A stretch of DNA of 64,000 nt, taken from contig NC_017094.1 in assembly GCF_000284315.1 (NCBI RefSeq), forward strand, positions 2,263,486 to 2,327,485. The letters run 5' to 3'. Position 1 is the stretch's first letter. Each line of letters begins with the position of its first letter. The stretch is from Leptospirillum ferrooxidans C2-3. GTDB lineage: Bacteria; Nitrospirota; Leptospirillia; Leptospirillales; Leptospirillaceae. Under the pieces are notes generated by a model, which was given only the letters and a program-made list of their open reading frames with translations, was not told where the DNA came from and did not search any database. Positions 30,284 to 57,583 of this stretch are shown here, piece by piece. Position numbers and translations under genes: made by a program.

Positions 30284-31408
30284 TTATCCCGGCAACAAAT
30301 CATGGTACAGGCGGCGAAGATCCTCACGGCTTTTCTCATAAGAAAATGTTTCCAGAATCCGTTCACGTCCTCGTCTTCCCATCTGACGCCGGAGATCCGG
30401 ATTCCGGGCAAGGGTCAGCATGGCCTTCGCCATTTCTTCCGGATTTCCGGAAGGAACCAGAAGTCCCGTCTCCCCCTCTTTTACACATTCCGGATTTCCC
30501 CCGACACGGGTGGCAATCACAGGTAACCCCGCTGCCATCGCCTCAAGAATCGCATTCGAAAAACTCTCTGTTTTCGAACTCAAGAGAAAGACGTCGAAGG
30601 CCGGCAATATTCGCTCCACATCCGGACGGACTCCCAAGAATCGGACGGAATCCCCGAGAGAAAGTCGCTTGGCCTCCCCTTCAAGGAACCCCCTTTCCGG
30701 CCCGTCTCCAACTTGAAGAAAAAGAGCTTCCGGAAGAACATCCTTGACACGCCGAAAAGCCAAAAGCGCCACCTCGACAGCCTTGACTTTCCGGTGGCCG
30801 GCCACGATCCCGAATACGCATCGATCATCATCAATCCCAAGCGCTTTCCGGAGAGGGGTTCTGTCATCAGGTGGAGAGAATCGTTCCCCATCCATTCCGT
30901 TGTAAACCAGAACCATTTTATGACGGGGAATGTTCTCAATAGAGACCGCCGCATCAAGGGCCGCCTGGGAATTAGCCATGATCCTGTCGGCAAGTCGATT
31001 GATGACTTTCGTCTCAAATGAAGCGAGACGATCAGAACCCCTCATCCCGAAGTCGCCCATATCTCGCCTTGAAGTAATCACTCTGGTTCCGCAGATTTTT
31101 CCGGCAAGGGCCCCAAGAATATTAGGATTGGTCTGGAATGCGTGGACGATATCGATACGGTGATGGCGAATATAGCGAACGACCTTCCATAAAGCATGAA
31201 GGCCATCAGAACCATATAATTTTGAAAAGGGAGTGATTAGAACAGGAACTCCGATCCGGATCAGACCAGACTCGAAGACATCCCCACCCCGGAACGAGCA
31301 GACATGCGGAGTGACACCGAACGAAGGAGCAAACCGAGCCATTTCGGCCACATAACGCTGACTTCCCCCTGGTCCAAGATTGTCTATGACAAACAATACG
31401 GATGCCAT
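30284..31408 (-). CDS. Glycosyltransferase family 4
   Basis: The protein begins MASVLFVIDNLGPGGSQRYV, with the glycine loop of GT4 enzymes, and carries the donor-site block SFSNAILEAMAAGLPVIATR followed by VGGNPECV. GT4 enzymes transfer sugars from nucleotide donors with retention of configuration, typically in EPS and LPS assembly at the cytoplasmic face. ATG 31408 lies close to AAGGAG; an ATG at 31426 is in frame but lies on the other side of that ribosome binding site. It stands 269 bases from the fusion gene and shares its strand. Confidence 0.88.
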   Translation of the reverse strand: MASVLFVIDNLGPGGSQRYVAEMARFAPSFGVTPHVCSFRGGDVFESGLIRIGVPVLITPFSKLYGSDGLHALWKVVRYIRHHRIDIVHAFQTNPNILGALAGKICGTRVITSRRDMGDFGMRGSDRLASFETKVINRLADRIMANSQAALDAAVSIENIPRHKMVLVYNGMDGERFSPPDDRTPLRKALGIDDDRCVFGIVAGHRKVKAVEVALLAFRRVKDVLPEALFLQVGDGPERGFLEGEAKRLSLGDSVRFLGVRPDVERILPAFDVFLLSSKTESFSNAILEAMAAGLPVIATRVGGNPECVKEGETGLLVPSGNPEEMAKAMLTLARNPDLRRQMGRRGRERILETFSYEKSREDLRRLYHDLLPG

Positions 31409-31724
31409 AAGCTCCTTCCAATGCAAACAGCATTCTTTCAGGGCTTCTAGAGAGTTTCAAAAAATAACTAATAATCACCCAAGAGGGGGGAATTTCCATA
31501 CGAGGCCACATCCATTACCCAAGCAACCCAATTCTAGAATGATGATCCAAGTCAAAAAAGAATTCAAACCCAAAAATAATCATTTTTTTTTATTACCCAA
31601 TAAAACATATGATCAAAAACAATCTGTCAACATTGCGGACAACTGTCAGGTTATTTTACACAACAATAAGGGCATGCCACCAAAAAAATTTCCACAAGTA
31701 GTAATATAAAAAAGAAAAAAATTT

Positions 31725-31740
31725 AGGCATACCTTTTGCT
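31725..31740 (+). promoter_or_regulatory. Sigma-54 (-24/-12) promoter of the second PEP-CTERM gene
   Basis: AGGCATACCTTTTGCT has GG and GC at the exact -24/-12 spacing and differs from TGGCAC-N5-TTGCW at two positions (first base and sixth base). Transcription would start about 90 bases before GTG 31843. It lies in an AT-rich 434-base region (31409-31842) with no other recognised content. Confidence 0.6.
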
Positions 31741-31842
31741 TAACCTTCACCGAAAGCAATTCTTAATATTTTCTGAAATTGTTCTTCCCTCATACTTGAT
31801 CGACTAACTTATCTGGACATCAACCCTATAAGGAGACCATTC

Positions 31843-32847
31843 GTGGAACTTTTCAGCAAAAGAACTTCCCATAAAATGAACTCGCTCTTCTCCATTGCCA
31901 TTGCGGGAGCGATTCTCTCTTCCCCCGTCATTGCACAAGCGACCATTATTGACTGGAGCAACCAGACACTGGGACAAATCGACGCCTATAATACCGTAAC
32001 CCAAACAAACACAGTCGTCGATGCCAACGCAAACACCCCGGACAGCCTGATATTTGCAAACAACGGCAACAGCATCATCTATACCTCCAATCCAAACAGT
32101 GGATCCAATCTGTATATCTACAACATCCAGAACAAAACCAATAATATTCTTGCTTCAGGGACTGCTCTCGGCAATTCGACCTCTCTCCGGGATCTCTCCT
32201 TGACCCCAAGCGGGAATTCCGTTCTCGTTTCATCAACATCTGGCGGGGAAGTCTACAAAGTCAATCTAACGACTCAGGCAGTCACCCTTTTAACCACCGG
32301 AACCAGACCTCAGGGCATCGTATTTACACCCTCCGGGAACCTGTTTCTAAATCTTGGCTCAGGAATCGATCAAATCAATTACCCATCCGGAACAGTCGCC
32401 AACACGAACACCAACTACGGCTCCCTTGACGGTCTGACCTACGACCCGACCACTGGATATCTGTATGCCACCACTGGCATCAAAGGAACAAATCCCAGCA
32501 ATACAATTATACAGATCAATCCAACCACTCTGGCCGAATCACTGATCACTATCTCCGGTAGCAATGTTCCAACGAGCCTTCACCTCGACGGAATCGAAGC
32601 CACTTCAAATGGCAACCTCATTATCGCAAACTACGATAACAGCCTACTAGAATATTTCACTGCCACAAATACAGCCACCACACTGGCCGCGACTCCCGGA
32701 ATAGACGATGTTGCACCACTGGTCGGAGGCGGATCCGCCGATCCTTCAGCCACCCCGGAACCCGGCACATTTGCCCTTTTCGGAACAGGCATTCTCGTAA
32801 TGGCACTGTTTTCCCTCTATTCCCGCAGAAAAGCCGAATCCTGTTAG
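31843..32847 (+). CDS. PEP-CTERM protein with beta-propeller-like repeats
   Basis: GTG 31843 follows ATAAGGAGA at seven bases, the same leader as the other PEP-CTERM gene. The 334-residue product has a signal peptide (LFSIAIAGAILSSPVIAQA), a mature domain of propeller-type repeats (NTPDSLIFANNGNSIIYTS, LRDLSLTPSGNSVLVSS, GIVFTPSGNLFLN, LDGLTYDPTTGYLYAT) and a sorting tail: TPEPGTFALFGTG, a hydrophobic helix, then SRRKAESC. It ends in a cysteine, which is unusual for the tail. It is an exosortase substrate and likely surface-exposed or matrix protein. Confidence 0.9.
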   Translation: MELFSKRTSHKMNSLFSIAIAGAILSSPVIAQATIIDWSNQTLGQIDAYNTVTQTNTVVDANANTPDSLIFANNGNSIIYTSNPNSGSNLYIYNIQNKTNNILASGTALGNSTSLRDLSLTPSGNSVLVSSTSGGEVYKVNLTTQAVTLLTTGTRPQGIVFTPSGNLFLNLGSGIDQINYPSGTVANTNTNYGSLDGLTYDPTTGYLYATTGIKGTNPSNTIIQINPTTLAESLITISGSNVPTSLHLDGIEATSNGNLIIANYDNSLLEYFTATNTATTLAATPGIDDVAPLVGGGSADPSATPEPGTFALFGTGILVMALFSLYSRRKAESC

Positions 32848-32874
32848 CCATATTCATTACAAAAAAATCTCTTT

Positions 32875-32910
32875 CCGGATCCCTGTGCTAGTTCAGGGAT
32901 CCGGTTTTTT
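32875..32910 (+). terminator. Rho-independent terminator of the second PEP-CTERM gene
   Basis: CCGGATCCCTG and CAGGGATCCGG form an 11-bp perfect stem around an 8-base loop, directly followed by six T. Confidence 0.95.
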
Positions 32911-33085
32911 CGGGTTAAACGCTGCATGGCAAACGAATCCCTTCCCGGATGATTAATCTGTCCATCTTTTCCTTCCACTGCCTCGCACCACCGATAAAGA
33001 GCCCTTAATTCAAAATCAATATCATGATTGACAGTTTCTTTCGAAAAAGACAGACTGTAAAAAAGATTGACAGGAGGCAAAGTCG

Positions 33086-34183
33086 ATGAAAACAGATGTA
33101 CTTGTCGTTGGGGCGGGCTTTTCCGGAAGCGTCGTTTCACGGCAACTTGCAGATTCCGGGAAAACGGTCGTCATCATCGATAAAAGGTCCCATATTGCAG
33201 GAAATGCCTACGACACCAACGATAAACATGGCATATTGGTCCATACTTATGGTCCCCATATTTTCCACACCAACTCCCAGGAAGTCTTTAGCTATCTTTC
33301 GGCCTTCACCAAATGGCGACCTTACGAACACCGGGTTCTTGCAAGCATCGACGGCCAGCTTCTTCCCATTCCCATCAACATCGACACCGTCAACCGACTC
33401 TATGGCCTGAACCTCGATGAAGAAGGACTGAAGTCCTACTTCGAATCCGTTCGTGATCCAAGGGACCCGATCAAAACCAGCGAAGACGCCATTGTCAACA
33501 TTGTCGGATGGGATCTCTATAAAAAATTTTACAAGGGTTATACAAACAAACAATGGGGACTCGATCCCTCCGAGCTTTTTGCAAGTGTTGCGGCCCGGGT
33601 GCCAGTCCGGACCAACCATGACGATCGATATTTTACAGACACCCATCAGGCAATGCCGCTTGACGGCTATACCGAAATGTTTTCAAGGATGCTTGATCAT
33701 CCGGGGATCACCATTCGACTCGGAGTCGAGTACCAGAAAATTCGCCAGGAATACTCGCCAAAACACCTCGTCTATACCGGCCCCATCGATGAATACTTCG
33801 ATTTTTGCTTTGGCAAGCTCCCTTACAGAAGCCTTTTTTTTGAACACGAACACCTTCCAACGGTTCAAAAATTCCAGCAGGTGGGAACGGTCAACTACCC
33901 GAACGAGCATGAATACACCCGAATCACCGAATTCAAGCACCTCACGGGGCAGGAGCATTCCGGGACATCGATCGTCAGGGAGTACCCGAAAGCCGAAGGA
34001 GATCCCTATTACCCGATCCCTCGTCCTGAAAATGACGAGCTTTTCAAGCGCTACCAAAAGTTGGCCGAAAAAGAAAAGGGAGTCACATTCGTCGGACGAC
34101 TTGCCCAGTATCGCTATTACAATATGGATCAGGTCGTCGGTGCGGCTCTTTCCGCATCAAAATCGATCCTCGATGAAATATGA
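33086..34183 (+). CDS. glf: UDP-galactopyranose mutase
   Basis: Glf converts UDP-galactopyranose to UDP-galactofuranose using reduced FAD. The N-terminal FAD site is VLVVGAGFSGSVVSRQLADS, followed by RSHIAGNAYDTND and HTYGPHIFHTN; GYTNKQWG and RVPVRTNHDDRYFTD are further Glf signatures, and MDQVVGAALS near the end is typical. Length 365 fits the family (about 370). CAGGAGG precedes ATG 33086. It opens the large EPS operon and is followed by a GT2 enzyme of galactofuranosyltransferase-like style, so galactofuranose is probably part of the polymer or a linked glycan. Confidence 0.96.
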   Translation: MKTDVLVVGAGFSGSVVSRQLADSGKTVVIIDKRSHIAGNAYDTNDKHGILVHTYGPHIFHTNSQEVFSYLSAFTKWRPYEHRVLASIDGQLLPIPINIDTVNRLYGLNLDEEGLKSYFESVRDPRDPIKTSEDAIVNIVGWDLYKKFYKGYTNKQWGLDPSELFASVAARVPVRTNHDDRYFTDTHQAMPLDGYTEMFSRMLDHPGITIRLGVEYQKIRQEYSPKHLVYTGPIDEYFDFCFGKLPYRSLFFEHEHLPTVQKFQQVGTVNYPNEHEYTRITEFKHLTGQEHSGTSIVREYPKAEGDPYYPIPRPENDELFKRYQKLAEKEKGVTFVGRLAQYRYYNMDQVVGAALSASKSILDEI

Positions 34184-48713: not shown

Positions 48714-50882
48714 ATGTTCTTGAAAATCCATGACCTTTTTCCCATCATCACAATTTGCCTGACCATTGCGACCATGATTGTCGCCTATATAGCCCCCAGG
48801 AGAAAATCCGCCTCAGCCTTTCTTCTTCTGGCTCCTCTTTCGGCACTCCTTCCCGTTCTTGCCAGTTTTTTTATTTTTATTCCGCAAACACTTCTTTCAA
48901 TCGATCATAACTTTCAGCTCTGGCTGGCGGGAGAGACGCTATCGTGCCTCGGACTTATTCTTTTTTCCCTGGGGTTCTCGCGACAGGACCCATGGAAAGA
49001 AATTCGTGGCCAAAAGTTCCTCTTGGCCTTCATCATATCGGGAATCCTGCTTGCAACCTACGAGATCCTTGAAAACCCTGCCCTGATCAAGATTCTTCTC
49101 CTTCCGGGACCTTCCGTTCTTCTCATCAATTCTCCGGAAATGACGATTTTTGCATTCTTCATCATGGGAATGATCATTCTGTCGCTGTTCCAGTTGTCCA
49201 GAACATATATCTCCGCTGCAGGAGTTGAGAGATGGAACATCAAATACCCGATGATCGGAGTCTTTCTCTGGACTCTCTCCGTCTTTCTCGTTCATACCAA
49301 TCAGGTTCTCTCGGGAGGATTCGAGCGATCATTTCTCTACCTGGAGGATCTGGGACTCTTTTCCATGGATTTTCTATTCCTCTACTCACTCCTGATCCAG
49401 CGAGTCAAGGATGTTTCATTGCAAGTTTCAAGAAATGCCATCAATCGCTCCCTTTTACTTCTTCTCGGGGGGGGAGGTCTCATTTTTCTGGGTGGACTCA
49501 GCTCCACTCTCAAGGAATTCGGTCCAGTCTGGTCTCGTTTATCCTCCAGCCTTATGGTCTTTCTAGGAGTGGCCGCCCTTCTGGTCCTCTTCTCTTCCGA
49601 ACGGCTCCGACGCGAGCTTGAGTACTTCCTGGGCATCCATTTTTACTCAAGTCGGTATGACTACCGTGCCACATGGATGACACTCACAAAAGTCCTTTCG
49701 GAATCAAAAGATCTTCGGGAAATGATTCCGACTTTAATGGAAAGGACTAGGGAAATTTCTTTTGCCGAATCCCTCGTTTATTGCCATATCGGCGAAGGAA
49801 TTCCCCAAACCATCTCCGTTCGGCAATCCCTGGGATGGGACCACCCCACCCCCCTCAATAACGATATTCTGGCCCCATCCCTGTTGTCAGTCCTCCTGTC
49901 CGGATCCCCTATTCATCAAAAGGATTCTTTTACTCCCGAACAAAATGAGCTCCTTTCCGGTCTTTTTAACTCGTTGTCCGCCAACTGGATATTGCCTCTC
50001 GTCTTCCGAAACAAAATCCTCGGACTTCTCGGTTTGAATATCAAAAACACGGGAAGCAAAGGTTTGTCCGAAGATCGTCTTTTTCTTCAAGCCCTGTCAG
50101 TGCAGTGGGTCAGCCTGCTGGTCAGTGCCACACTCTCAAGGGAGATGGCGTGGACATGGGAATCGGACCTTCTTTCCGGTCTTCGGGCCTTTACATTCCA
50201 CGACCTCAAAAATGCTGGCATCGCCCTCAAGCTGATTCTCCACAATGCCCGAGATAACATCATGTTTGCCGACTTTCAGGAAGAACTTCTCCAGAATCTT
50301 CAAAGCATATCTCATCAGATCGAGCAGTCCGTTGAACAGTTTCTCTATCCTTTTCGTCAGGAGTACACCCGGCAAACCTCATTTGATGCGAACAACCTGA
50401 TCAAAAACACTCTGAAAGGGATTGCTTCGGAGAAGTATCCAGAGCTTGAAACCAAACTGAACTTTCAGGAGATTCCCCTTGTTTCAGGAAACGCACGGGC
50501 ACTTGAAACAACCATCCGGAATCTTTTGATCAATGCCCGGGAAGCCATGCAAGGGAAAGGGATCATCAAAATCGCAACACGAAGCCTTGATGGGGAAACA
50601 GTTTTGATCACAGTCTCCGACAACGGGCCAGGAATGAGTCAGGAATTTATGGACAATAATCTGTTCAGGCCTTTTCAAACAACCAAAAAAAAGGGATCGG
50701 GACTCGGCCTCTTCAGCTCGAAACTGTTGATTGAACAAAGTGGGGGACAGATCCAGGTCAATTCAAAAGAAGGGGTCGGAACGGAATTCATGATCACACT
50801 CCCAACAGGATCACCTGAGGTGGACAATGGCGATCAGGAGTCGCCCATCCTGAAAGAACACAACAACAACCTGTCCATCTAA
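48714..50882 (+). CDS. prsK: PEP-CTERM system histidine kinase PrsK
   Basis: The 722-residue kinase has about eight N-terminal membrane helices, a GAF-like domain near residues 330-470, and an HATPase: His496 in the H box FTFHDLKNAG, N box NLLINAREAM, DNGPGMS and GSGLGLFS. This layout is that of PrsK, the sensor kinase genetically tied to PrsR and XrtA. It should phosphorylate PrsR. TTG 48720 may be the true start, since AAAGGA sits six bases from it but only one from ATG 48714. A G8 tract near 49458 lies in a helix-coding part. Confidence 0.9.
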   Translation: MFLKIHDLFPIITICLTIATMIVAYIAPRRKSASAFLLLAPLSALLPVLASFFIFIPQTLLSIDHNFQLWLAGETLSCLGLILFSLGFSRQDPWKEIRGQKFLLAFIISGILLATYEILENPALIKILLLPGPSVLLINSPEMTIFAFFIMGMIILSLFQLSRTYISAAGVERWNIKYPMIGVFLWTLSVFLVHTNQVLSGGFERSFLYLEDLGLFSMDFLFLYSLLIQRVKDVSLQVSRNAINRSLLLLLGGGGLIFLGGLSSTLKEFGPVWSRLSSSLMVFLGVAALLVLFSSERLRRELEYFLGIHFYSSRYDYRATWMTLTKVLSESKDLREMIPTLMERTREISFAESLVYCHIGEGIPQTISVRQSLGWDHPTPLNNDILAPSLLSVLLSGSPIHQKDSFTPEQNELLSGLFNSLSANWILPLVFRNKILGLLGLNIKNTGSKGLSEDRLFLQALSVQWVSLLVSATLSREMAWTWESDLLSGLRAFTFHDLKNAGIALKLILHNARDNIMFADFQEELLQNLQSISHQIEQSVEQFLYPFRQEYTRQTSFDANNLIKNTLKGIASEKYPELETKLNFQEIPLVSGNARALETTIRNLLINAREAMQGKGIIKIATRSLDGETVLITVSDNGPGMSQEFMDNNLFRPFQTTKKKGSGLGLFSSKLLIEQSGGQIQVNSKEGVGTEFMITLPTGSPEVDNGDQESPILKEHNNNLSI

Positions 50883-51312: not shown

Positions 51313-52152
51313 ATGGCAGGAGAAAAGATCGCCCTATTGATCGCCTCTGTGACAGTTATCGTCCTGTCCTGGTCGAACATTTTGAAACTGGTGGACGACT
51401 GGAACTCGCTGCCATCCTATTCCCACGGGTTTCTTGTCCCTTTCGTCGCCATTCTCCTCGTCTATCTGGATAAAAAACAATTGACAAGAATTCAGGATCA
51501 ACCATCTCTCTGGGGGATTGTTTTTATCAGCGCGGGAGTGATTTGCCTTCTCATCGGAACTTGGTCGGGCCTCGATTTCATCCGTCAGATTTCCATTCTT
51601 TTTCTGATTTCCGGGATCATTGCCGGTTACTGGGGACTGAGGACACTAAAGGCCCTCCGCTTTCCGGTGCTTTATTTGCTGTTCATGATTCCCCTCCCCT
51701 TCATCGTCTTCAATTCGATCGCTTTTCCACTTCAGATTCTTGCGGCAGAGGGCGCATCGAACATATTGAACGGGATACAGATACCTGTTTTCCGGGAAGG
51801 GACAATCATCCACCTTCCCCATATCTCCCTTGGTGTTGAGGAAGCATGCAGCGGCATTCAGTCATTGGTGAGCCTTCTGGCCATCTCTGTTCTGATGAAA
51901 AAACTGGGACATCTTGAAGGCGTGACAGGCGTTCTCTTTGCCCTGTCCGCCATCCCGATTGCCATTTTGGCAAACATGATGCGCATTGCGGGTACAGGGA
52001 TTCTCGGCTCATTTGTAAACCCTCACCTCGCGGAAGGGTTCTTTCATCTTTTTTCGGGCTGGGTCGTTTTCCTGTTTGCGTTTCTTACCCTGTTTCTCGA
52101 GATAAAGGCCATACAGCTTCTCAGGAAGAGGAGGCCGCTTGAAACCGTCTAG
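51313..52152 (+). CDS. xrtA: Exosortase (XrtA type)
   Basis: The 279-residue protein has eight or so membrane helices with the exosortase triad in order: Cys179 in EEACSGIQSL, Arg224 in ILANMMRIAGT, and His245 in GFFHLFSGW. It is a transpeptidase/protease proposed to cleave PEP-CTERM tails in the cytoplasmic membrane and hand the proteins to surface polymer. GGGAG precedes the ATG. The next gene overlaps by 14 bases. Neighbouring PrsK, EpsI, PrsR and PrsT support the XrtA type; the two visible substrates are at 19.7 and 31.8 kb. Confidence 0.92.
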   Translation: MAGEKIALLIASVTVIVLSWSNILKLVDDWNSLPSYSHGFLVPFVAILLVYLDKKQLTRIQDQPSLWGIVFISAGVICLLIGTWSGLDFIRQISILFLISGIIAGYWGLRTLKALRFPVLYLLFMIPLPFIVFNSIAFPLQILAAEGASNILNGIQIPVFREGTIIHLPHISLGVEEACSGIQSLVSLLAISVLMKKLGHLEGVTGVLFALSAIPIAILANMMRIAGTGILGSFVNPHLAEGFFHLFSGWVVFLFAFLTLFLEIKAIQLLRKRRPLETV

Positions 52153-52894
52153 ACAGTTCAACATGCTTTTATCCTCTATGATCATGGGGGTTTCCTTTGC
52201 CTTCCTTCTTGGGAGCATTGACCGGAGACCGGTGCCCGCCCACCTCTCTCTCAGGGCATTTCCCGAAGAGCTGTCCGGTTGGTCAGGCACCCCCGTTCCA
52301 CTCTCGAAAAAAGAGCAGGAGATTTTAAACGCGGACGACTTTGCCTCGATCCTGTTCACAAAAGCGGCGACGGAATCCTCTATTTTTTTCTTCAGCGCCT
52401 TCTATCAGCATCAGACCCCCGAGAAGAACATCCACTCCCCCAAGAATTGTCTCCCCGGATCCGGATGGGCGATGATCGATACAAAAGTCATCACCGTTCC
52501 CCTTGAAAATGGAGGCAAACCGCAAAGAATCAATCAGGTTGTCATCCAGAAGGGGCTCTCCAAACAGGTCGTTCTTTACTGGTATCAGGAAAGGGGAAGG
52601 ATCTTTCCGAATGAATATTGGGGACGTTTCTACCTGGTGAAAGACGCACTGACCCTTCACAGGACCGATGGCGCCCTGGTCAGGATTTCCGCTTCCCTTG
52701 AAGGATCGGTCGACAATACCGTCCAGAAGGAGCTTCGCTTCATCAGGAACCTGACCCCGATGCTGTCGGAATATATTCCCGGAAGACACCAAGTCGCCAT
52801 GCCCTCTTCCCCGGGAACCTCCATGCTACCGGTTCCGGAAAATCCGGATGTCTCAGAAATCAGCCCGATCAGTGGAGATGTCAAAAATGGGTGA
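52139..52894 (+). CDS. epsI: Exosortase-associated EpsI-family protein
   Basis: The start is TTG 52139, with GAGGAGG a few bases upstream and a 14-base overlap with xrtA; no ATG gives a better reading. The 251-residue protein has an N-terminal membrane helix (MLLSSMIMGVSFAFLLGS) and the diagnostic EpsI block NIHSPKNCLPGSGWAMI. In some organisms this domain is fused to exosortase; here the two are separate but translationally coupled. It is needed with exosortase in EPS-linked loci, although its biochemistry is unsettled. Confidence 0.92.
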   Translation: MKPSRQFNMLLSSMIMGVSFAFLLGSIDRRPVPAHLSLRAFPEELSGWSGTPVPLSKKEQEILNADDFASILFTKAATESSIFFFSAFYQHQTPEKNIHSPKNCLPGSGWAMIDTKVITVPLENGGKPQRINQVVIQKGLSKQVVLYWYQERGRIFPNEYWGRFYLVKDALTLHRTDGALVRISASLEGSVDNTVQKELRFIRNLTPMLSEYIPGRHQVAMPSSPGTSMLPVPENPDVSEISPISGDVKNG

Positions 52895-54305
52895 TGAGGT
52901 CCCCCAGGCCGAAAAACCGACCATTTTTATTGTTGACGATGATCCTGTGATCGTCAAACAGCTGACGTGGCTTTTCCGGTCCACATATCCCGTCCTGTCC
53001 TCCGGAACCTTCTCGGAAGCGGTCGACATCTTCCTCAAGAAAAGACCTGCAGTCGTGATCCTCGACCTCGCCCTCGGCGATGTCGAGGGACAAAATGGAA
53101 TCGATCTTTTACGGATATTTTCCGAATCCGATCCCAACTTTCACGGCATTATCCTTTCCGGATCGATCGATCGCCCCAAGGCGCTCGAAGCGGTCAGGCT
53201 CGGAGCCTACGACCTCCTGGACAAATCCATCGATCCCGACGAACTCAAGCGGATTGTCGGTCGGGCCTGCAATCGGGCCATGCTTCAACAGGCCACAAGG
53301 GCAACGCCTCCACCTGTCTCGGAAGAGGATTCCCGAAACGACTTCCCGGGAATTGTCACCACCAACCCCAAGATGAAAGAGATGCTGGGACTGCTCCTCA
53401 AGATCAGCACAACCGATATCGCCGTTCTGATCACAGGAGAGAGCGGAACGGGAAAGGAACTCTTTGCCAGGGCCTGCCATGAAAAAAGCCAACGAAAGAA
53501 CGGACCGTTCATTGCCATCAACTGCGGAGCCATTCCCGAAAACCTCATTGAAAGCGAATTGTTCGGCCATGAAAAAGGATCCTTTACAGGCGCCACAGAA
53601 TCCCGTCCGGGAAAATTCGAATCGGCAAACAACGGGACCCTGTTTTTGGACGAAGTCGGAGAGATGCCCCTAGATCTCCAGGTCAAACTTTTGAGGGTTC
53701 TGCAGGACAAGATCGTGGAGCGGGTCGGAAGCCGCACCGGAAAACACCTTGATGTGAGAATCATCGCCGCAACCAATCAGGATCTGACCCAATACATGGC
53801 TCAGGGCAAATTCAGGGAAGACCTTTTCTACCGCCTCTCCGTCATCAAGTTTCACCTCCCTCCCCTAAGGGAAAGGGGGGGAGACATCATGACGCTGGCC
53901 CACTATTTCCTCAACCGGTTCAAGGAAACCTACCAGAAACCCGCCATGATGGGATTCACCCGCGACAGCGAAGAACGGATCAAACGGTATGGATGGCCCG
54001 GCAATATCCGGGAGCTTGAAAACCGTATCCAGCGGGCGGTAATCATTTCCGGAGGAAACTGGATCACTCCGGAGGATCTGGACCTTTCAACCGAAATCAA
54101 AAACGAGATCCAACCCCAAAACACCGATTCTCTGGCCAATCTTCAGAAAACGCGGGAAGACGCGGAAAAACGCATGTTGATCGAGGCGTTTGAAAAAACA
54201 AGAGGCAACATCAGCGAAGTCGCCCGGATGATCGGCACTAGCCGGCCAACGGTTCATGCCCTTGCCAAAAAACACGGGATCACCCCCCGAAACTTTAAGG
54301 AATAA
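52887..54305 (+). CDS. prsR: PEP-CTERM-type sigma-54-dependent response regulator PrsR
   Basis: With ATG 52887 (GGAG nine bases upstream; upstream in-frame ATGs at 52848 and 52878 overlap epsI more) the protein has 472 residues. Receiver domain: acidic pair Asp17-19, phosphoacceptor Asp60 (VILDLALG), Lys113. AAA+ domain: Walker A GESGTGKE (184-191), sigma-54 contact loop GSFTGA (231-236, GAFTGA in most), FLDEVGE. C-terminal Fis-type helix-turn-helix with ISEVARMIGTSRPTVHALAK. It should be switched on by PrsK and activate sigma-54 promoters; two matches lie before PEP-CTERM genes in this window. Confidence 0.93.
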   Translation: MGDEVPQAEKPTIFIVDDDPVIVKQLTWLFRSTYPVLSSGTFSEAVDIFLKKRPAVVILDLALGDVEGQNGIDLLRIFSESDPNFHGIILSGSIDRPKALEAVRLGAYDLLDKSIDPDELKRIVGRACNRAMLQQATRATPPPVSEEDSRNDFPGIVTTNPKMKEMLGLLLKISTTDIAVLITGESGTGKELFARACHEKSQRKNGPFIAINCGAIPENLIESELFGHEKGSFTGATESRPGKFESANNGTLFLDEVGEMPLDLQVKLLRVLQDKIVERVGSRTGKHLDVRIIAATNQDLTQYMAQGKFREDLFYRLSVIKFHLPPLRERGGDIMTLAHYFLNRFKETYQKPAMMGFTRDSEERIKRYGWPGNIRELENRIQRAVIISGGNWITPEDLDLSTEIKNEIQPQNTDSLANLQKTREDAEKRMLIEAFEKTRGNISEVARMIGTSRPTVHALAKKHGITPRNFKE

Positions 54306-54307
54306 CG

Positions 54308-57300
54308 ATGGATAATCATTTTTCCAGCAAATGCCCTGCTCCAGCATTTTCCGCGATTCGTCCCGCAATGCTTCCGTTTGCCGCCTCGGTTGTCTTGATC
54401 GTCTCCCTTTTGGCCGGATGCAGCAAAAACCCGGCAGAGCTTCAAAAGAAATATATGGCCAGCGGTCTCGACTACCTTGCCAAGGGAAAAAACAACGAAT
54501 CCATCATCGAGTTTCAGAATCTTCTGAAGATCAACCCCAAATCCGCTGCCGGACATTTCTATCTGGGAGAAGGATACAAGGCAAAAGGCTGGATCACCGA
54601 TGCCCTCCTGCAATTTCGACAGGCATCGGAGCTTGATCCCACCTACCTCCCGCCCCATCTCGAGATCGCCCGGTATGAGGTCAACAGCGCGCAGTGGCCG
54701 GCCGTTCTTCCGGAAGTCCAGACGATCCTGAAGCTTTCCCCCTCCGATCCCGAAGGCTGGACCTTCAAGGGGCAAAGGAACCTTGCCCTTGGAGATACCA
54801 CCAAGGCCCAGGCCGCGCTCACCCACGCGCTTGAGATCAAACCGGACTACACCCCGGCTGTTGTCGCCATGGGGGATCTGGAACTGGCGCTCAATCAGCC
54901 GGACAAAGCCAAGGAGTTTTACCAAAAGGCCCTGAACAAAACCCCGGACAACAGCCGAGGCTGGATCGGACTCGGAAAGGTTGCCGAACGTCAAGGACAA
55001 AAGGACGAAGCCCTCGCGAACTATAAAAAGGCGGTTTCCGTTTCCCCAAACAATATTCGATCGTCCATTATTCTCGCCAATTATCTCGCCAAGGAAGGGC
55101 ACCTGAATCAGGCCATTGCCCAGTTGCAACTTCTTTCAAAGGGCCATACGGATATCCGTATCCCTTTAAAAATCGCCGAATACGATACATTGCTCAACAA
55201 AAACGATGAAGCCATCGCTCTTTTGCGACCATACGGCCAACAGAAAGTTCCCATTGTCGAACTCTATTTTGTCCTGGCAAAAGCTTACGAACAATCCGGA
55301 AACAAACAAAAGGCCCTCGAGAATGTTGACAAGCTGATGGCGCTGAAATTCGACAACCAATCCATTTTATTGGCCGCGTCGAATATCGAGCTCCGGGAAG
55401 GGAATCCCACCGAGGCGCTGAAAATCCTCTCCACCCTCAAGGACAGTGAAAAAAATCTTCCGGGCTACTGGCTTTCGAGTTCAACCGCCGAGCTTGAACT
55501 CGGACATCGTGGTGAAGCGCTTTCGGAGCTTGAGGATGCCACTTCAAAATATCCGGAAAACATTCCTCTCAAGCTCGCCCTGGCCAATGGCTATTCCGCC
55601 AACCAGAAGCCATCCAGAGCCATGTCCGTTCTGAATGGCATTCTTTCAAAAAATCCGGACAATACCCAGGCAATCGTGCGAAAAGCCGGTCTTCTCGCCC
55701 AAAGCAAGGGACTTCCCGCGGCAATCTCCTTCCTGAAAGCCAACACCATTTCATACCCGAACAACCAGACGCTTGAGATCAGCTATATCCAGGCTCTTTC
55801 CGGCAACAAGGAAATGGACAAGGCCATCAAAACGGCCAGAGACTATCTTCAAGCCCACCCATCCGACCAGACGATGGAACTGTTGATTGCGGGACTCCAC
55901 CTTCAGGAAGGAAAAACGGAAAAGGGGCAGTCTGAACTTAAATCCATCATTTCCGCCAACCCCAAGAATCTGACAGCCATCACCACTCTCGCGAACCTTG
56001 ATCTGGGGCAGAAGCATTTTCCGGAAGCGGAATCTCTCTTTCGGCAGGCCATCGCCATCGCTCCGGACAACTCCGCCCTTTATACCAGCCTTGGTGAAAC
56101 GCTCAGTGCCGAAAACCAGCAACAGCCCGCAGAAGCCGCCTATCAAAAAGCGCTGGAGATAGACCCCAACCAGCCTCTGGCTCTTCTGGAACTGTCCCAA
56201 TCTGAAATCACCTCCGGTGAAACACCCAGGGCAATCGTTCACCTCACACCGCTCCTGAAGCTCAACTTCCCCCCGCCACAAGAGGCAGATGTGCAGTGGC
56301 TTTGGGGCATTGCCTCCATGCAGGAAGGGGAATATCCCCGAGCAGAACGGGCGCTTGTAAAAGCCACCGGATTGGCTCCCGGAAACTTCACCTATCATGA
56401 AAGTCTGGGAGACCTGTGGGCGGCAGAGGGCGATTTTTCCAAAGCGAACAAGGAGCTCTCCAAGGCCTATTCCCTCGATCCAGAAAATACCTTGATCAGG
56501 ATTAAGCGTGACTGGATCGCACTGAACCTCCAAAAAGGGAAAGTCGATCCCCAAAAGATCCAGACGGTCGTAAACGAAGCATCCCAGTTCAGGAAAGACA
56601 ATCCTAAAGACCAGACCGCCGCCATGATCGAGGCACGGGGGGACGCTATGCTCGGAAAGACCGACGCAGCACTGAAAGTGTTTGATTCTGTCCTCTCAAT
56701 AAACCCCAGCAACTCCCAGGCCATTCTCGGAAAATCCGGAATTTTGGTCTCTCAAAAACATGTCAATCAAGCACGCACTCTTGTTGGCCATCTTCTCACC
56801 GACCACCCCAATAACATCCAGGCCAACCTGATGCTTGCCGGGATCGACCTCCAGACCAACAATATCCAGGACGAGGCCTCCCGGCTGGAAACAGTCAACC
56901 ATCAACGCCCCAATTGGGTACAGCCGGCACTGGCCCTGTCGCTAGCGGATCTTTCGCTCGGCCGGTTTTCCCAGGCGAAAGCCATTTTGACCCAGCTCAC
57001 CCAGAACAATCCAAAGTTTCTTCTTGCCCAGTTCTATCTTGCCCGCTCCGACATGGGACTTGCCGATTATCAGGGCGCCATCGACACTCTGAAACCATTG
57101 CTATCCTCATCCAAGGATCCCTCCAGCATCTACTCTCTGATGGGAGACGCATCCCTTCGCATGGGGGAAAAAGGGCAGGCGATCAGTTATTGGAAAAAAG
57201 CCTTGAAGACAGCGCCCAAAAATCCGCTTATCCTGAACAATCTGGCATTTCTTCTTTCCAGTGATAAAAAAGACCTGCCCCAAGCGGTCACTTATGCCCA

Positions 57301-57583
57301 AAAAGCCCTTTCCATCACAAAACAGCCGTTCATTGAGGACACTCTAGGGTATCTTCTCTATCTCTCCGGACACTACCATCAGGCCCAGGTGCAGTTTGAT
57401 GCCGCCAATAAGGCCGGATTCAAGAATACAGAATTCCAGTATCATATGGGGCTCAATGAATGGCGTCTAGGCAATACCCAAATGGCGAGTGAGACTTTGA
57501 AAAAGGCAATCCTCGACGGCACCCTGACCGACGACGAAAAGAAAAAGGCCCACGAAGCCCTTGACCAGATGGCATCGAAATGA
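54308..57583 (+). CDS. prsT: PEP-CTERM system TPR-repeat lipoprotein PrsT
   Basis: The 1091-residue protein has a signal ending in lipobox LLAGC and then more than 20 tandem tetratricopeptide repeats, seen in blocks such as GHFYLGEGYKAKG, GWIGLGKVAERQGQKDEA, ALYTSLGETLSAENQQ and NLAFLLSSDKK. TPR arrays bind proteins; PrsT is proposed to scaffold EPS or PEP-CTERM export at the membrane. AAGGA precedes ATG 54308, two bases after prsR. It closes the xrtA-epsI-prsR-prsT operon. Confidence 0.92.
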   Translation: MDNHFSSKCPAPAFSAIRPAMLPFAASVVLIVSLLAGCSKNPAELQKKYMASGLDYLAKGKNNESIIEFQNLLKINPKSAAGHFYLGEGYKAKGWITDALLQFRQASELDPTYLPPHLEIARYEVNSAQWPAVLPEVQTILKLSPSDPEGWTFKGQRNLALGDTTKAQAALTHALEIKPDYTPAVVAMGDLELALNQPDKAKEFYQKALNKTPDNSRGWIGLGKVAERQGQKDEALANYKKAVSVSPNNIRSSIILANYLAKEGHLNQAIAQLQLLSKGHTDIRIPLKIAEYDTLLNKNDEAIALLRPYGQQKVPIVELYFVLAKAYEQSGNKQKALENVDKLMALKFDNQSILLAASNIELREGNPTEALKILSTLKDSEKNLPGYWLSSSTAELELGHRGEALSELEDATSKYPENIPLKLALANGYSANQKPSRAMSVLNGILSKNPDNTQAIVRKAGLLAQSKGLPAAISFLKANTISYPNNQTLEISYIQALSGNKEMDKAIKTARDYLQAHPSDQTMELLIAGLHLQEGKTEKGQSELKSIISANPKNLTAITTLANLDLGQKHFPEAESLFRQAIAIAPDNSALYTSLGETLSAENQQQPAEAAYQKALEIDPNQPLALLELSQSEITSGETPRAIVHLTPLLKLNFPPPQEADVQWLWGIASMQEGEYPRAERALVKATGLAPGNFTYHESLGDLWAAEGDFSKANKELSKAYSLDPENTLIRIKRDWIALNLQKGKVDPQKIQTVVNEASQFRKDNPKDQTAAMIEARGDAMLGKTDAALKVFDSVLSINPSNSQAILGKSGILVSQKHVNQARTLVGHLLTDHPNNIQANLMLAGIDLQTNNIQDEASRLETVNHQRPNWVQPALALSLADLSLGRFSQAKAILTQLTQNNPKFLLAQFYLARSDMGLADYQGAIDTLKPLLSSSKDPSSIYSLMGDASLRMGEKGQAISYWKKALKTAPKNPLILNNLAFLLSSDKKDLPQAVTYAQKALSITKQPFIEDTLGYLLYLSGHYHQAQVQFDAANKAGFKNTEFQYHMGLNEWRLGNTQMASETLKKAILDGTLTDDEKKKAHEALDQMASK

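Follow-up and report, generated by a model that had tools for sequence, protein, structure and literature searches.

Judged from the sequence, a single-gene unit for a PEP-CTERM protein in Leptospirillum ferrooxidans C2-3 is very probably transcribed from a sigma-54 (RpoN) promoter that has an enhancer upstream and is controlled by PrsK and PrsR. The unit lies in a window of 64,000 nucleotides, i.e., the whole stretch of DNA analyzed here, which belongs to a genome of 2.56 Mb in a single contig. A putative activator box and a predicted sigma-54 site together mark the PEP-CTERM genes of this bacterium, and a regulon for surface-protein sorting can thereby be described at the sequence level in a Nitrospirota lineage.

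A sigma-54-type element upstream of a PEP-CTERM gene

The window contains two PEP-CTERM genes, which we refer to by their coordinates as the 31843 gene and the 19698 gene, with the following features.

31725-31740, + strand: sigma-54-type -24/-12 element AGGCATACCTTTTGCT, GG at 31726-31727 and GC at 31738-31739, 13.3 bits
31828-31836, + strand: Shine-Dalgarno-type leader ATAAGGAGA
31843-32847, + strand: PEP-CTERM protein gene, 334 aa, with the PEP-CTERM tail at the end of the product (PF07589, 22.4 bits; cut-off, 20.7)
32875-32904, + strand: terminator-like hairpin 3' of the PEP-CTERM gene
20759-20774, - strand: sigma-54-type element TGGCACAATCATTGCT of the 19698 gene, 18.2 bits
19698-20690, - strand: other PEP-CTERM gene of the window, 330 aa (by the family model)

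A first-pass annotation had placed AGGCATACCTTTTGCT before the 31843 gene with its GG and GC in register, and this was confirmed, with 102 bases between the end of the element and the GTG start codon. Compared with TGGCAC-N5-TTGC, AGGCATACCTTTTGCT is a modest match with two mismatches (A for T and T for C). The bare IUPAC pattern was discarded as a test of the site, being uninformative in the window: with up to three mismatches it occurred 417 times, barely above the 384 expected by chance, and 4 of 100 shuffles reached 417. When scored with a -24/-12 weight matrix, for which approximate weights based on the consensus were used, AGGCATACCTTTTGCT ranked second among 271 gene upstream regions, the first being that of the 19698 gene. 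Its score was attained in 7 of 4,000 dinucleotide shuffles of the gene's own 280-base upstream region. Direct footprinting of the 31843 gene failed because no orthologue was found; no relative was detected in two other genomes of its genus, both of which are incomplete.

The leader ATAAGGAGA is indeed common to both window genes, as had been noted, and its proposed value as a regulon mark was rejected, as it occurs within 25 bases of 4 of the 271 starts, two of them belonging to these genes, and is absent before the other four PEP-CTERM genes of the genome.

Sigma-54-type sites at PEP-CTERM genes across the genome and the family

Six PEP-CTERM genes in the genome scored over the PF07589 cut-off, and the same six were found with TIGR02595. 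The earlier count of two substrates out of two thus had the wrong denominator, the window holding two of the six. Their sites were as follows.

TGGTAAGAAAATTGCA: 13.1 bits
TCGCACGGAATTTGCT: 12.0 bits, GG broken (TCGCAC)
TGGCACAATCATTGCT: 18.2 bits (19698 gene)
TGGCACAACACTTGCT: 18.2 bits
AGGCATACCTTTTGCT: 13.3 bits (31843 gene)
TGGTATGCCGTTTGCT: 14.5 bits

As background, 271 upstream regions (-250 to +30) were drawn from the window together with 20 further 15-kb stretches, 364 kb altogether, with genes taken from simple longest-ORF calls; the weight-matrix scan covered this 364-kb part, and the whole genome was searched by pattern. The first-pass annotation had proposed testing whether PEP-CTERM genes are enriched in sigma-54 sites, and they were: an intact GG-N10-GC site of at least 13.1 bits preceded five of the six PEP-CTERM genes, compared with none of the 269 others (Fisher p = 5e-10), and after removal of the two window genes that had prompted the idea, three of four compared with 0/269 (p ~1e-6). 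The best of the 269 other regions scored 12.0 bits with the sigma-54 matrix. These results support the sigma-54 reading of AGGCATACCTTTTGCT. The accompanying statement that neighboring genes and the exosortase gene lack such a match held within the window, where no other gene exceeded 9.7 bits and the exosortase gene reached only 2.5; it did not extend to the family, since the exosortase row of some relatives has one.

A search of 20 other genomes of the family gave 24 further PEP-CTERM loci, in ten genomes; one of the loci (L027) was below the family cut-off. After three loci with too little upstream sequence (L014, L019, and L027) were dropped, 11 of the remaining 21 had a site of at least 13 bits, compared with 0.11 expected from shuffles, and 10 were below 13. 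The GG was also broken (TAGCAT) in the apparent orthologue, in a relative, of another of the six PEP-CTERM genes.

A 17-mer box upstream of the sigma-54-type sites

The annotation had further suggested a search for a shared PrsR-binding repeat at 80 to 200 bases upstream, and a 17-mer box was found before all six PEP-CTERM genes. Those of the window genes are listed here.

31644-31660, + strand: motif 1, the presumed PrsR box TGTCAGGTTATTTTACA, 22.5 bits (relatives-only matrix)
31625-31641: weaker upstream box TGTCAACATTGCGGACA, a TGTC-N9-GACA dyad, 6.3 bits when read on the - strand (relatives-only matrix)
20894-20929: box pair before the 19698 gene, at 20894-20910 and 20913-20929, 19.7 and 13.2 bits

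The motif emerged as TGTCAG-N3-TTTTTaCA from a de novo search of the 190-base region preceding the site at each of 15 relatives' loci, with a log-likelihood of 100 compared with 45 to 52 in 12 shuffled sets, a control that was weaker than the real run (15 versus 60 restarts, 40 versus 60 iterations, and single-base shuffles). The six regions of L. ferrooxidans C2-3, searched separately, yielded the same 17-mer word. With the matrix built from the relatives only, the six scored 17.4, 18.7, 19.7, 23.1, 22.5, and 13.4 bits; the regions used for this matrix had been picked for having a sigma-54-like site, in some cases a weak one, and apparent orthologues of two of the six genes are among them. 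The best other upstream region scored 14.1 bits, leaving aside that of the divergent gene at 30284-31426, which has its intergenic region in common with the 31843 gene. TGTCAGGTTATTTTACA, 64 bases before the sigma-54-type site of the 31843 gene, scored higher than any other position in the 364-kb sample. Only three positions there reached 17 bits, namely the boxes of the two PEP-CTERM genes and 33056-33072, and all three lie in the window. The box matrix thus provides a means of finding further substrates and operons.

A second box of at least 4.5 bits lay 19 to 22 bp away at all six genes and at 9 of the 15 relatives' loci; at the 31843 gene it is TGTCAACATTGCGGACA, 19 bp upstream of TGTCAGGTTATTTTACA. 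The spacers between the nearest box and the sigma-54-type site were 64, 85, 97, 100, 109, and 119 bases at the six genes. NtrC-family enhancer sites consist of dyads that occur in pairs ahead of a sigma-54 promoter. The boxes described here are likewise paired dyads in this position, but they have a sequence of their own and stand at PEP-CTERM genes, not at nifH or at 72 other sigma-54-like sites. These 73 sites were hand-picked from the 123 genome matches to TGGCAC-N5-TTGC with at most one mismatch; they have both GG and GC intact, lie outside the window, and are neither within PEP-CTERM genes nor at their promoters. None of them had a box of at least 13 bits within 200 bases upstream (best, 10.8). 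The site before nifH (18.6 bits) served as a positive control and was among the 18 of 69 classified sigma-54-like sites that were intergenic by the simple gene calls. A loose genome-wide pattern, YGTCA-N6-TTTNCA with one mismatch, gave at least 548 matches compared with 217 for the reversed control and was replaced by the weight matrix.

For one of the six PEP-CTERM genes, three apparent orthologues from the same genus (L004, L020, and L026; 64 to 65% protein identity to L004) showed conservation, with invariant columns making up 28 of 34 in the boxes and 11 of 16 in the promoter, compared with 55 of 171 elsewhere. Relatives of the 19698 gene in G007 (38% identical) and G011 (36%) carry two boxes on the same strands and at like distances (119, 120, and 121 bases for one box and 138, 139, and 140 for the other, in the 19698 gene, G007, and G011). 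The automatic alignment of these three misaligned the sigma-54-type sites (3/16 invariant in the site, 12/17 and 8/17 in the boxes, and 37/171 elsewhere) and was set aside as poor, so that only the box distances were used from this set.

Relation to known PEP-CTERM regulatory elements

In the portions of the paper available, Haft et al. (2006, PMC1569441) describe an element that precedes 99 of 167 PEP-CTERM genes of Proteobacteria and was found in that group only. In it, a motif 1 ending in TTTACA is followed by a sigma-54 motif 2, with a spacer of 62.8 on average (range, 32 to 92), and PrsR was proposed as its partner. At the 31843 gene, TGTCAGGTTATTTTACA agrees with motif 1 in its 17-nt length and TTTACA end, the sole features compared (not the published logo), and AGGCATACCTTTTGCT agrees with motif 2 as a -24(GG)/-12(GC) site upstream of a PEP-CTERM gene; both the spacer of 64 and the 102 bases from motif 2 to the start codon lie in the ranges given there (32 to 92 and 23 to 221). 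As in that element, motif 1 is sometimes repeated, and the PEP-CTERM genes are mostly single-gene units with long upstream regions; of the Prs genes, prsT is present in the genome together with prsK- and prsR-like candidates. The host differs, being a member of the Nitrospirota, and of the six spacers, 64 and 85 are in the published range, whereas 97, 100, 109, and 119 are outside it; a second box lies 19 to 21 bp away (at least 4.5 bits) at all six genes.

For pepA of Aquincola tertiaricarbonis, both the need for RpoN1 and a transcription start at the GG/GC site were measured, according to the available text (PMC9850573). That gene likewise has a GG/GC promoter (TGGCAC, CTGCTT), a predicted enhancer, and prsK/prsR and polysaccharide genes in the genome; here, the evidence is from sequence alone and from another phylum. 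PEP-CTERM system genes have been mentioned in Leptospirillum, with no tie to sigma-54 in the parts available (PMC5418355, PMC12122527), and among the literature matches listed, the titles and abstract beginnings held no report of the element outside Proteobacteria. Because the box and site match motifs 1 and 2 and genes for RpoN and Prs-like proteins are present, we classify the putative element as a Nitrospirota member of the known PEP-CTERM/sigma-54 regulatory system, in which four of the six genes have longer spacers. This indicates that the scheme is not restricted to Proteobacteria.

Regulatory and sorting machinery

The genome encodes a complete RpoN of 498 aa with AID, CBD, and DBD (G000:C1:1499324), and the window contains the following genes in this order on one strand, with polysaccharide genes around them.

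48714-50882, + strand: PrsK-like histidine kinase (TIGR02916, 243.7 bits; below the cut-off of 300)
51313-52152, + strand: exosortase (TIGR02602, 166.1 bits; above the cut-off of 105.55)
52139-52894, + strand: EpsI (TIGR02914, 118.4 bits; above the cut-off of 42.8)
52848-54305, + strand: PrsR-type sigma-54-dependent response regulator, the presumed activator (TIGR02915, 493.9 bits; just under the cut-off of 502.6)
54308-57583, + strand: PrsT TPR protein (TIGR02917, 423.1 bits; above the cut-off of 312.2)

The exosortase did not reach the cut-off for the XrtA type (TIGR03109, 194.1 versus 208). TIGR02915 and TIGR02916 were the best-scoring models for the PrsR-like and PrsK-like genes, though both scores were below the cut-offs, and the genes stand in the expected cluster. 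A public metagenome-assembled "Nitrospirae bacterium" record, which is identical over 7,346 bases to a genome of the same genus (G001), has a PrsR 93% identical to that of the window.

In the mechanism that we propose, PrsK would phosphorylate PrsR, and PrsR dimers would bind the paired upstream boxes, whose near ends are separated from the promoter element by 64 and 83 bases. A loop in the DNA would then bring the AAA+ domain of PrsR into contact with the RpoN-polymerase in its closed complex at 31725-31740, and transcription would begin near 31751. The product would be exported and then processed by the exosortase encoded approximately 19 kb downstream.

Two further genes were noticed. A FeeM-type N-acyl amino acid synthase gene (window 21095-22006) adjoins a PEP-CTERM gene, and homologues of PrsR, PrsT, FeeM, and PEP-CTERM lie in that order on one contig of G007. 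At L009:1183-2346, a 387-aa protein has sigma-54 DNA-binding and GIY-YIG domains, with no activator- or core-binding domain matched.

The box in relatives and alternative readings

In four loci of three relatives (L163, L167, L171, and L173, from G007, G012 twice, and G017), a sigma-54-like site and a box head a row of galU followed by exosortase, epsI, and prsR, with prsT also in the row where the contig continues (G012:C39 and G017). The site scored 15.6 bits and the box 21.5 to 22.4 bits, 114 to 130 bases before it; galU was identified by the family model in two loci and by 88 to 91% identity in the other two. A galU remnant was seen in G008, with the site and box 538 bases apart, and the contig of G005 starts inside galU. 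No such pair was found before the exosortase row in G001 (1.3 kb upstream) or in the window. The position of the pair at the head of a row containing prsR suggests that the sorting machinery may be autoregulated in part of the family.

An exosortase was matched in 7 of the 21 family genomes. A search of 13 genomes for a PrsR-type DNA-binding domain detected it in these seven and in no others. Neither the exosortase nor this domain was found in G002, G003, G004, G011, G016, and G020, which nevertheless have PEP-CTERM genes, and all of these but G002 showed sites of at least 13 bits and boxes of at least 18 bits, at loci that were in the training set of the matrix. PrsR may therefore not be the sole reader of the box: either the assemblies of these genomes lack the island, or the box is read there by a different regulator. 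For L. ferrooxidans C2-3, we consider it unlikely that a real promoter and box are served by an NtrC-family activator other than PrsR, alone or besides it. In favor of this are the five relatives just named and the eight TIGR02915-like regulators that the genome carries at E <= 1e-90. Against this, the exosortase and the PrsR-type domain coincide without exception among the 13 genomes, the box heads the row holding prsR itself in four loci, and five of the six PrsR-less genomes are 64 to 88% complete (G003, 99%), so that the island may have been lost in assembly or binning.

Less probable still is a chance -24/-12 match in front of a gene read from an ordinary sigma-70 promoter. Matches to the pattern with up to three mismatches are common, and a shuffled copy of the region can reach the score of AGGCATACCTTTTGCT; however, sites of the same class mark five of the six PEP-CTERM genes and none of the 269 others, TGTCAGGTTATTTTACA is a strong box at a plausible distance from the site, and from 31427 up to the start codon the + strand has a single sigma-70-like match, at 31448-31475, which agrees in 9 of 12 positions. 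Activation by PrsR from the predicted box at a sigma-54 promoter is thus the reading that we favor.

A box before glf and polysaccharide genes

The remaining one of the three positions of at least 17 bits lies before glf (33086), the start of the exopolysaccharide genes.

33056-33072, - strand: box TGTCAATCTTTTTTACA, 21.1 bits, ending 13 bases before the glf ATG (33086)

This is the second-strongest box in the 364 kb scanned. It raises the idea that boxes also act outside sigma-54 control, with the regulator blocking or tuning the exopolysaccharide genes at 33056-33072 while activating the substrate genes, which we regard as possible and rather doubtful. The strength of the box, its closeness to glf, and its company among the top three with two PEP-CTERM boxes speak for such a role, as does the best sigma-54-like site in 32801-33120 scoring only 7.7 bits. 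Polysaccharide clusters in four loci of three relatives (L163, L166, L171, and L173) also have a 20- to 21-bit box at a deacetylase/glycosyltransferase junction, just before the glycosyltransferase gene. Those boxes, however, lie partly within a coding gene, at its 3' end, where selection on the protein could account for their conservation. In the one relative whose glf leader was examined (L165 in G017), no box was detected over 400 bases ahead of glf (best score, -0.9 bits), and a sigma-54-like match of 12.6 bits was seen instead.

On a broader and similarly tentative view, the PrsR box might be the hub of one regulon in this Nitrospirota lineage for the sorting enzyme, its substrates, and polysaccharide. 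Through sigma-54 it would activate PEP-CTERM genes and, in some relatives, the galU-exosortase-epsI-prsR row in an autoregulatory, feed-forward loop; at 33056 it would control the exopolysaccharide genes independently of sigma-54, possibly by repression. Where relatives have neither exosortase nor PrsR, a different activator would have taken over the box. With the glf box and the promoter pair before the galU row at hand, the coupling of polysaccharide, sorting enzyme, and substrate by one regulator becomes testable.

In the same four loci with the junction box, and with no box of at least 15 bits near it, a sigma-54-like TGGCAAG(G/C)ATCTTGCT stands shortly before a polysaccharide export gene.
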